Below, piece by piece: positions 9,047 through 54,705 of a stretch of DNA of 64,000 nucleotides (its first letter is position 1; every line of letters starts with the position of its first letter). Made by a program: the position numbers and the translations under genes. The DNA is from Candidatus Thorarchaeota archaeon (GTDB taxonomy: Archaea > Asgardarchaeota > Thorarchaeia > Thorarchaeales > Thorarchaeaceae). The DNA lies in NCBI GenBank assembly GCA_011364985.1, contig RDOC01000005.1, positions 1 to 64,000 of the forward strand. The letters are read 5' to 3'. A model generated the notes under the pieces. That model searched no databases. It saw only the letters and a program-made list of their open reading frames with translations, and was not told the origin of the DNA.

Positions 9047-10851
9047 GTGGACATATGGTTGCTGATGAGGAAGAGAGGACCTATGCCTACTCTGATGGAG
9101 ACCTGTTGAAAAGAATGATAAGATATCTTCTAGCCTACAGGCGAAGATTCGCAGCAGTGTCAGTTCTCGTGGCTCTTAGCATCGGGGTCGATATATGGAT
9201 TCCTTTTGTTCTTCGCCAAGCTATCGACGTTGATTTCGGAAGTGGAAATGCTCAGGCTCTGCTCTTCACCTCTCTGCTCTATATTGTGCTGCAGATTGCA
9301 GCATGGTTGACAACCTTTGCTTACGAATACATTATGGCAACTATGGGTCAGCATGCAATATACACTATGCGACAAGAGTTGTATGATCATCTTCAAGGAA
9401 TGTCGCAGGATTTCTACGATAAATCCTCATCCGGAAGAATAATCTCGCGTCTGATTAATGATGTAGAAAGGATGAGCGAGCTCCTTAGCGAGGGCTTGTT
9501 CAGTTCATTCGCTCAGATTTTCATAGTATTAGCCATAGGAACTGTCATCTTCACCGTTGACATCCAGCTCGCACTCATTACTCTTGGAGTTGTCCCTGTT
9601 CTGTTGGTCACAACAATCTACTTCAGGAGATATCTAAGAGAGGCATACCGGCGAACCCGCAAAACCATTTCAAGTGTCACCTCCAACTTTGCTGAGAGCA
9701 TTTCAGGAGCGAAGGAGACTAAGAGCTTCACAAGAGAGAAGAAAAGCATGGATCGCTTTACCGAAGTGAACAGAAAGGATTACCAGTCCAACGTGGATGC
9801 TGGCAAGGCAAATGCAACCTTCTTCCCCTCAATCCGATTTATCAGCGGATTGGGTGTGTTTCTCATTCTTCTAGTTGGAGGCAGTCGACTAATTCAGGGA
9901 ACAATCACGTTGGGAACGGTTGTTATGTTCATTCAGTTTAGTGATCGATTCTTCCGTCCAATTCTAACGATTGCAAACTTCTACACCTCAGTACAAAGCG
10001 CATTTGCAGGCGCAGAACGAGTCTTCACGGTGCTCGATACCGAGCCAACTGTAAGGGACAAGCCCGACGCAATTCCACTACCGCCCATTAAGGGAAACAT
10101 CACTTTTGACCATGTGCACTTTGGATATCTTGAAGACATACCAGTTCTCAAGGACTTCGAACTTGAGATTCAAGCTGGAGAGACAATTGCACTCGTTGGC
10201 GACACAGGCGCAGGAAAGACCACTGTCATCAACCTACTCAACAGGTTCTATGACGTTTGGAGTGGATCGGTGCGCGTTGATGGATTTGACGTAAGAGATT
10301 TAACACTTGAGTCGCTTCGATCTCGGATAGGAGTCGTGCTTCAGAGCCCCTTCCTCTTCATGGGAACTGTTCGAGACAATATTAGGTATGGAAAACATGA
10401 TGCATCAGAGGAGGAGTTGCTTGATGCAGTTGAAGCCATTGGTGCTAGTAGGGTTCTGAGCAACCTTGAGAATGGCCTTGAGACTGAGGTTGGTGAGCGA
10501 GGAGCGAGACTCTCTGAGGGAGAGCGTCAGCTTGTCAGCTTTGCACGTGCACTCCTTGCAGATCCGAGCATTCTGATTCTTGACGAGGCGACAAGTTCCG
10601 TTGATATCTATACTGAGTATGCTATACAACGAGGAATGAAAAGACTTCTCAAGAATAGAACATCCATAGTGATTGCCCATCGCCTTTCGACCATTGTTAA
10701 TGCAGACCGAATTGTGGTCCTAGAAAATGGGGAAATAGTTGAGGCTGGTAAGCATTCAGAACTAATGGCCCTAAAAGGCAAGTACTATTCACTTTATGAA
10801 TTGCAGATTCATCCTAGAGCAATGAAAGTACCATCCAAAGACAGAGAATAA
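9043..10851 (+). CDS. ABC exporter half-transporter, catalytic-site subunit
   Basis: A 602-residue partner of the preceding gene, with six membrane helices and a nucleotide-binding domain. Walker A is GDTGAGKT, the Q-loop reads VVLQSPFLF, Walker B ILILDEATSSVD has the catalytic Glu, and the switch His is in IVIAHRLST. The signature is LSEGERQ rather than LSGGQ, so this subunit completes only the degenerate site and relies on the first subunit for the active one. Together they form an asymmetric heterodimeric exporter of lipids, drugs or peptides; substrate cannot be inferred. No insertion is present after Walker A. Translation is coupled by the ATGA overlap. Confidence 0.91.
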   Translation: MSGHMVADEEERTYAYSDGDLLKRMIRYLLAYRRRFAAVSVLVALSIGVDIWIPFVLRQAIDVDFGSGNAQALLFTSLLYIVLQIAAWLTTFAYEYIMATMGQHAIYTMRQELYDHLQGMSQDFYDKSSSGRIISRLINDVERMSELLSEGLFSSFAQIFIVLAIGTVIFTVDIQLALITLGVVPVLLVTTIYFRRYLREAYRRTRKTISSVTSNFAESISGAKETKSFTREKKSMDRFTEVNRKDYQSNVDAGKANATFFPSIRFISGLGVFLILLVGGSRLIQGTITLGTVVMFIQFSDRFFRPILTIANFYTSVQSAFAGAERVFTVLDTEPTVRDKPDAIPLPPIKGNITFDHVHFGYLEDIPVLKDFELEIQAGETIALVGDTGAGKTTVINLLNRFYDVWSGSVRVDGFDVRDLTLESLRSRIGVVLQSPFLFMGTVRDNIRYGKHDASEEELLDAVEAIGASRVLSNLENGLETEVGERGARLSEGERQLVSFARALLADPSILILDEATSSVDIYTEYAIQRGMKRLLKNRTSIVIAHRLSTIVNADRIVVLENGEIVEAGKHSELMALKGKYYSLYELQIHPRAMKVPSKDRE

Positions 10852-53024: not shown

Positions 53025-53261
53025 TCAACAGGTCGCACATACATTCGTCTGAGTCTCACCTACACCCTCAATCGCCTTGAGTTTTTCCACAACGTAGATA
53101 CTCATGTCATCGTTAGACTTGAATTCTGCCTTGACAATGATGTCAAAAGCGCCGAATATTATGAATGCTTCTTTCGTTTCGTCAAGTGCGATGATTTTGT
53201 CCAGAACATGCCGATTGGACATCCCTTCTATCTTGATCATGATATAAGCTGTGATTGTCAT
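53025..53261 (-). CDS. Stand-alone Lrp/AsnC ligand-binding (RAM) domain
   Basis: A 78-residue protein from ATG 53261 that consists only of the RAM domain: first strand TAYIMIKIEG, the helix NRHVLDKIIALDETKEAF, the strand-turn IIFGAFDIIVKAEFKSNDD, and the second helix and strand. This is the effector-binding half of Lrp regulators without a DNA-binding part. Such proteins form decamers that bind amino acids and can modulate full-length Lrp proteins. The frame is open to 53306 but that adds 15 residues not typical of the domain. It precedes the profilin pair, reading in the same direction. Confidence 0.8.
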   Translation of the reverse strand: MTITAYIMIKIEGMSNRHVLDKIIALDETKEAFIIFGAFDIIVKAEFKSNDDMSIYVVEKLKAIEGVGETQTNVCATC

Positions 53262-53364
53262 TGGATTGACCTCGCAGGTGTTTCTTTTGGACGATACGAT
53301 CTGCACTTATCCTTTACTAATTGGCTGCGCAGTAGTGATGAATCTGTGAGTGCTATTGAATGTG

Positions 53365-53742
53365 CTAAAGCCGCCTCATTAGTTGAATTGCAGTCTTCGC
53401 CAAATCAACAATGGTGAGCTCTGGTACGGAGTCAGGAGTGGCCCAAGCAATTGCCCAAGTGTCATCTTCTACAAGAGCCATTAGGAGATGACCTTGGTCC
53501 TTGTCCGCAGTTGCTATGTACGATTCGTCATCGGCAGCTACCAATCTGTAGGTCACACCACCTACCGAAATAGAGGAGGCTCCTGACGATGATGCAGTGG
53601 CTAAGGATTCTGTGGCATCGACAAGGTTATTCCAGTTTCTGGTAACCCAAATGATCTCACCGTTCTTCATAATCGCGAAAGCCTGAATCTTCGGATTATG
53701 GGAATACAGAAGTTTCCACTCATTATCGATAGTCATGTCCAT
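53365..53742 (-). CDS. Profilin-like protein, second of a tandem pair
   Basis: A 125-residue profilin-fold candidate. Residues 20-38 (QAFAIMKNGEIIWVTRNWN) match the beta strands around the first Trp-containing turn of profilins (AAIIGxDGxVWAQS). The later GGVTYRLVAA (61-70) and DQGHLLMALVEDDTWAIAW (82-100) correspond to GGTKYMVI and the GSGGI..TG..L..G strand pair. It differs from its neighbour by sequence but keeps the same order. Profilins bind actin monomers and affect polymerisation; Asgard profilins do the same with eukaryotic actin. A roadblock-type fold is the main alternative. Lies 105 bases downstream of the first copy. Confidence 0.7.
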   Translation of the reverse strand: MDMTIDNEWKLLYSHNPKIQAFAIMKNGEIIWVTRNWNNLVDATESLATASSSGASSISVGGVTYRLVAADDESYIATADKDQGHLLMALVEDDTWAIAWATPDSVPELTIVDLAKTAIQLMRRL

Positions 53743-53847
53743 TTTGATTTCACCAGAATGCAGCTATATTCTTGGACACCTAGAACTCACAAGATGGGTC
53801 GGACGGATTGCATTGGCCAGATAGACAGCCCATCTCAGACTGCCTTC

Positions 53848-54228
53848 TTAGATTTTGCCTTTCAGTGATTTTGCAGCACGATCAACATCGACATAGATTC
53901 CGTCTGGAGCAGCTTCTGCCGCAGCCCAAGCAACAACGAACTTGTCGCCCTCGATTTTGGCTAAAACCAAAATGCCGCTTCCTTGAACATTTCTGGCTAC
54001 GAGACTATCGGGAGTTGTCCGAATTGTGCTGTATTTCACCTGATTCTGCATGACACTTGCAGCACCACTGCCAACTGCCTTGCCAAGCTGAGCTGCATCG
54101 GCTGTGAGGTCCCAGTTGTTTGACTGCCAAAGGACCTGGCCGGAGGTAGTGATTACTCCAAAGGCTTGAACCATGTTTCCGCTGTCATTGTAGGCTTGTG
54201 TGTATGCATCCATAACTGGATCTGACAA
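53848..54228 (-). CDS. Profilin-like protein, first of a tandem pair
   Basis: A 126-residue protein with all the profilin landmarks in order: VQAFGVITTSGQVLWQSNNW (residues 20-39), then NQVKYSTIRTTPDSLVARNV (62-81) where profilins have the KYMVI...VIRGKK strands, QGSGILVLAKIEGDKFVVAW (82-101) for the KGSGG element, and a C-terminal helix (DVDRAAKSLKGKI). N-terminal helix residues DPVMDAYTQAYNDS replace the W-x-x-Y pair that binds poly-proline in eukaryotes; this is expected for Asgard profilins. It shares the family with the next gene, so the pair arose by tandem duplication. No actin gene is in the window. Confidence 0.78.
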   Translation of the reverse strand: MSDPVMDAYTQAYNDSGNMVQAFGVITTSGQVLWQSNNWDLTADAAQLGKAVGSGAASVMQNQVKYSTIRTTPDSLVARNVQGSGILVLAKIEGDKFVVAWAAAEAAPDGIYVDVDRAAKSLKGKI

Positions 54229-54402
54229 TATTATTCACCCCATGTTATACACGGTTTCTGGAAAGAAAGAAACAGTGTTACCATAAAAAGGAATTCTTGA
54301 TAGCCTTCTAAAAGTATCTTAGTCGGCAGTTGCCTAACATATTTTGAGAAATCTCATCATACTGGGGTCACACTCATATGTTCCGAACACATATTGGGAA
54401 TC

Positions 54403-54705
54403 ATGAGCCACGGACCGATCTGGGAGAACAACGATGGGGTCATCATAAAGATACTGGTTAGGCCGCGCTCGAAAGAGCGAGCTGTCATTTCTGAGCTCAC
54501 TGACGAGTATTTGGCCATCAATATCAGAGCTCCAGCAAGAGAAGGAAAGGCAAATATCGAACTCCTGAAACAATTGGCGAAACTCCTTCACGTGTCAACA
54601 GCCAACATAGAGATAATATCAGGTCATAAATCCCGAGAGAAGACCATCAAAGTAATCGGGATTCAGAAAGAACAAGTTGTCAAGCTGGTCACAAACGATA
54701 AATAA
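54403..54705 (+). CDS. DUF167/YggU family protein
   Basis: A 100-residue UPF0235 protein. The conserved elements are VIIKILVRPRSKERAV (N-terminal strand), APAREGKANIELLKQLAKLL, and ISGHKSREKTIKVIG, which together define the family. The function remains unknown in all organisms; the fold is a small alpha/beta domain. ATG 54403 is used; TTG 54394 is an alternative. Divergent from the profilins and 97 bases before the OPT gene. Confidence 0.85.
   Translation: MSHGPIWENNDGVIIKILVRPRSKERAVISELTDEYLAINIRAPAREGKANIELLKQLAKLLHVSTANIEIISGHKSREKTIKVIGIQKEQVVKLVTNDK

Follow-up and report, generated by a model that had tools for sequence, protein, structure and literature searches.

The Candidatus Thorarchaeota DNA analysed here, a stretch of 64,000 nucleotides referred to below as the window, carries two adjacent minus-strand genes that had been predicted from the sequence to be tandem profilins with specialised roles. 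Profilins are proteins that control actin filaments, and the Asgard archaea in which these genes occur are close archaeal relatives of eukaryotes. The profilins of this group are central to the argument that a regulated actin cytoskeleton existed before eukaryotes. The locus raises the question of whether both genes are profilins and, if so, when the second copy arose and what it might do. The genome to which the window belongs, as contig 18, measures 1.7 Mb and has an estimated completeness of 74%.

Family identity of the two genes

Both open reading frames were found exactly where the original prediction had placed them. The upstream gene, profilin A (53848-54228, minus strand), encodes 126 aa from a TTG start codon and is orthologous to the Thorarchaeota profilin of known structure (7PBH / TFG12995.1). 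The downstream gene, profilin B (53365-53742, minus strand), encodes 125 aa from an ATG start codon and is a tandem paralog specific to Thorarchaeota, with an apparently altered actin face. The two proteins are 27% identical over their full length. Two of the sequence elements on which the prediction had been based were present in both proteins, namely the V-K/T-Y strand (VKY in A, VTY in B) and the GSG/QG element (GSG in A, QG in B). The third, a GxVxW turn, was present in A (GQVLW) and did not hold for B, which reads GEIIW.

In a sequence search against all PDB chains, the best match of profilin B was 7pbh_A (E 6e-17), which was also matched by profilin A (E 4.6e-56). A matched the Odin, Heimdall and Loki profilins in addition, and the matches of B were the same profilin set minus Heimdall; 5zza, 5zzb and 5yed were matched by both proteins. 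The Pfam Profilin model gave 16-17 bits for A and B against a cut-off of 25, which is a detection limit and not a biological criterion. As the model also gave only 18.9 bits, again below this cut-off, for a close ortholog of thorProfilin (7PBH), the low scores reflect a limit of that model.

AlphaFold (AF2) models of A and B were built from class-wide alignments, with pLDDT values of 95 and 91, respectively, and both contained the seven-strand sheet and the N- and C-terminal helices. In a structure search with the B model, the Odin and Loki profilins (5zza/5zzb/5yed) ranked first (E 1e-10, TM 0.85-0.91), followed by other Asgard and eukaryotic profilins, with roadblock proteins lower. For the A model, 7PBH came first and the ranking was otherwise as for B. 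The lower-ranking roadblock matches are the one point in favour of reading A and B as roadblock/LC7-type regulators of small GTPases, a family with a related fold. This identity is extremely improbable and was rejected, as neither protein matched roadblock/LC7 in Pfam or among PDB-chain sequences up to E 10, and the roadblock structures (E about 1e-4, TM about 0.66 with the B model) were far behind the profilins. Chance resemblance was also ruled out, as both proteins match solved profilins and the pair recurs across the class. On the evidence of sequence matches and predicted structures, A and B are both profilins. The family call thus stood: the best sequence matches were Asgard profilins only, no stronger roadblock/LC7 match emerged, and the profilin sheet was seen in both models.

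Among the known profilins, the Odin and Loki proteins (5ZZA, 5ZZB, 5YED, 5YEE) share the fold with both copies (TM 0.80-0.91) but are only 20-26% identical to A and B. They are relatives of the single-copy ancestor, and actin-bound complexes have been solved for them. The profilin from Heimdall (heimProfilin, 6YRR), from another Asgard lineage, has the profilin fold but is more distant from A and B in sequence and fold. The eukaryotic profilins also share the fold, with about 8-21% identity to A and B in structural alignments.

Conservation of the pair in Thorarchaeota

Profilin A was present in 44 of the 47 genomes of the class, at 64-89% identity relative to the window copy. B was also present in 43 of these 44 genomes; in the one exception (G041), a contig end lies just 11 nt from the A gene. 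B lies directly downstream of A in 42 genomes, the adjacent pair was found in 13 genera, and the spacing between the two genes was 54-105 nt across the class wherever the start codon was clear. In most of the named Thorarchaeota contigs the same order of genes is kept, with an OPT transporter, a DUF167 gene, the divergent A-B pair and then an HTH gene.

Some loci depart from this picture or add to it. In one genome (G032), A and B are on separate contigs (L083 after position 10375, and L058) whose broken ends carry transposon-like genes, with a MerR-like reading frame after A and a TnpB zinc-finger end before B; the spacer looks to have been split by an IS607/IS605-type insertion. Genome G033, from the same genus as the window, has two A-B pairs (C153:3633-4468 and C177:944-1769), the second of which resembles that of another genus and may be contamination. 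Two contigs with Lokiarchaeota in their titles (L082 and L090) carry A-B pairs of the Thorarchaeota type, and these labels look outdated or wrong. In the window, a gene for a stand-alone Lrp/AsnC ligand-binding domain (53025-53306) directly follows B, and is kept in 16 of 37 named loci.

No second adjacent profilin was found at 27 profilin loci of other Asgard families. In 6 of these 27 loci (L132, L134, L135, L140, L161 and L166), the profilin gene is divergent to the same DUF167 gene as in Thorarchaeota. The DUF167 gene of the window is at 54394-54705, and this divergent arrangement, which Thorarchaeota have in common with three or more other Asgard families, is an old gene neighbourhood.

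In a maximum-likelihood tree, the A clade (support 100/99) and the B clade (100/96) were sister groups (99/90 for A+B), which places one duplication before the Thorarchaeota class. A recent local duplication was ruled out, as A and B form reciprocal clades that span all sampled genera. The most economical account is that a single tandem duplication took place in the Thorarchaeota stem and that A kept the ancestral promoter side.

About 20 Thorarchaeota genomes also encode, away from this locus, a third profilin-like family (L149-L160) that is very divergent. It forms one clade (100/100), has a weak match to 7PBH (E 1e-4) and matches no Pfam family. A search of the window's genome (estimated 74% complete) did not find this family, and only A was found.

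Transcription of the locus

In all 38 A genes examined, a TATA-like element begins 59-68 nt before the conserved start codon, where 1.5 would be expected by shuffling, with a pattern that was chosen after inspection of the sequences. In the window this element reads TTTTAT (54283-54288, minus strand), lies 60 nt upstream of A and is likely the promoter of an A-B unit. A Shine-Dalgarno-like motif was present 11-15 nt upstream of the start in 38 of 38 A genes (GGGTGA at 54235-54240, minus strand, in the window) and before the B gene in 31 of 35 genomes (GGTGA at 53750-53754, minus strand, in the window sequence). No TATA-like element was found in the promoter zone before the B genes of 35 genomes, and the 105-nt spacer of the window (53743-53847, minus strand) likewise lacks one in this zone. 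The presence of this box before A and its absence before B suggest that the two genes are probably co-transcribed as one transcription unit.

A GGGGA...TCCCC hairpin was observed in the A-B spacer of many relatives (mean z -1.4, 35 sequences). The folding of the window spacer at 53743-53847 was no better than that of shuffled sequences, and the hairpin was not clearly present in it. As the spacers also align poorly, a conserved RNA element is not claimed.

Start codon of the published thorProfilin

The ortholog of copy A has been characterised as thorProfilin (7PBH / TFG12995.1; Survery et al. 2021, PMC8410842; Inturi et al. 2022). It is reported to slow the elongation of rabbit actin and to bind polyproline weakly, at 200-500 uM (PMC8410842). 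The published protein is that of isolate TEKIR_14, and corresponds exactly to the A protein of locus L093 except for C2A; L093:9944-10375 is homologous to positions 53848-54282 of the window. When the L093 reading frame is taken from an upstream ATG it gives the 7PBH chain, with 18 residues (MCGYNLGTEWISLRSKLE) preceding the conserved MSDPVM. Survery et al. (PMC8410842) and the title of the 7PBH entry treat these residues as an N-terminal extension, and Survery et al. argue that it is not an artefact.

The 18 extra residues are unsupported by the other A genes, as 28 of 38 A genes have in-frame stop codons within the preceding 54 nt and therefore cannot encode them. The two nearest relatives of L093 (L092 and L096) are among these 28. 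In L093 itself, the TATA-like box is at -65 and the upstream ATG follows it by a few nucleotides, at -54; the Shine-Dalgarno-like motif precedes the conserved start, downstream of that ATG. In archaea, the transcription start normally lies about 25 nt downstream of the TATA box. From the position of the TATA-like box and of the Shine-Dalgarno-like motif, and from the upstream stops in other A genes, it is very probable that the extension results from a mis-called start codon. If so, the "extended N-terminus" of thorProfilin and the regulatory role proposed for it may be a gene-calling error, and such an error would alter the reading of the published binding data.

Divergence of the two copies

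In 557 of 558 genome pairs, profilin B had diverged further than profilin A, with a median ratio of 2.1. For unsaturated pairs, dN/dS was 0-0.10 for A and mostly 0.06-0.15 for B, with one very close pair at 0.29. These low values indicate that both copies are under purifying selection.

Other Asgard profilins share 39 conserved sites. Of these, 9 were kept by both copies and 11 by neither, while 11 were kept mainly by A (including K64, S66, L75, N79, G82 and Y111) and 8 mainly by B (including L12, T35, G62, T78 and H85). The complementary retention of ancestral residues could be taken, together with the constant order of the two genes and their short spacing in almost every genome, to mean that A and B act as a heterodimer or in a fixed ratio, with for example one copy binding actin and the other polyproline. 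We regard this as improbable, since profilins are mostly monomers and operon pairing alone is no proof of contact.

The actin-binding residues tabulated for human profilin include K69, S71, I73 and R74 (PMC1964790). Human profilin 1 could not be aligned directly to the Asgard set by profile, and the mapping used here therefore consists of one published lysine equivalence, that of Odin profilin K58 with human K69 (Survery et al., PMC8410842), and its ungapped extension. The lysine of the VKYS strand of A (K64) aligns with Odin K58, and the extension sets K-Y-S-T-I-R of A against human K69-C-S71-V-I73-R74. By this mapping, A matches the K-x-S-x-x-R strand of human profilin 1 (K69, S71, R74) and B lacks it. 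B also lacks the K-Y-S motif conserved in most Odin and Loki profilins.

Among the A orthologs, position 64 was K or R in 100%, S66 was kept in 95% and R69 in 94%, while in the B orthologs position 64 was a mixture of T, K and E, position 66 was mostly K or R, and position 69 was variable; the corresponding human residues K69, S71 and R74 do not define the family, and other members vary here. The arginine equivalent to human R74 is absent from other Asgard profilins too. The contacts with actin may be somewhat different in Asgard profilins.

One tryptophan, Trp33 in A and Trp32 in B, was invariant and aligns with Trp53 of the polyproline site of heimProfilin (6YRR). In most other Asgard profilins this site is occupied by tyrosine.

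Proposed roles of A and B

Taken together, these results make it quite likely that the locus encodes co-transcribed profilin paralogs derived from a single duplication before the Thorarchaeota radiation, in which A would be a canonical actin-monomer-binding profilin and B would have kept the profilin fold and the tryptophan of the polyproline site, with a remodelling of the strand-4/5/6 face by which profilins contact actin and PIP2. The suggestion in the original prediction that these may be specialised copies is supported by their retention throughout the class, their separate clades and their different conserved residues. The same genome encodes an actin-family protein (G000:C11:432205-433308; E 3e-133 to Pfam Actin). 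Actin-monomer binding has been reported for an A ortholog (PMC8410842) and, by analogy, A would bind and buffer actin monomers.

An alternative is that B is a functional duplicate retained for dosage, which binds actin as A does and whose sequence has changed by neutral drift that the fold tolerates. As a whole, the Asgard profilins diverge strongly, yet several are reported to act on rabbit actin (PMC9433394, PMC8410842), and B retains Y65, G84 and H85 of the ancestral sheet. We nevertheless think this explanation unlikely, because the replacements in B at pan-Asgard sites are consistent (S66 to K/R, N79 to A, G82 to N/D, Y111 to an aliphatic residue), and because W9, N16 and L109, which are invariant in B and specific to it, point to a different constraint and not to drift.

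For a remodelled B, two roles can be considered. B might bind actin weakly or differently and tune A, by competing for polyproline-bearing or membrane partners or by bringing them, and this role is proposed tentatively. It is also conceivable, though more doubtful, that B lacks the standard actin contact and is a separate regulator, for example an adaptor for polyproline or membranes, or a protein that binds a different member of the actin family. The retained tryptophan suggests that B may still read polyproline.

Implications

Copy A is known biology. As far as could be checked in the open literature, the class-wide paralog B, its putatively altered actin face and the proposed correction of the start site are new. 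A search of the open literature found no report of a second profilin in Thorarchaeota. The text available from the thorProfilin reports contains no discussion of copy B from that locus, and multiple duplications are mentioned for the profilin tree of Survery et al. (PMC8410842). If B has lost the actin contact, a division of labour between two profilins would have arisen in Thorarchaeota independently of eukaryotes. A fixed pair whose members appear to have had opposite fates at the actin-binding face would represent a natural experiment on the role of profilin in these cells.
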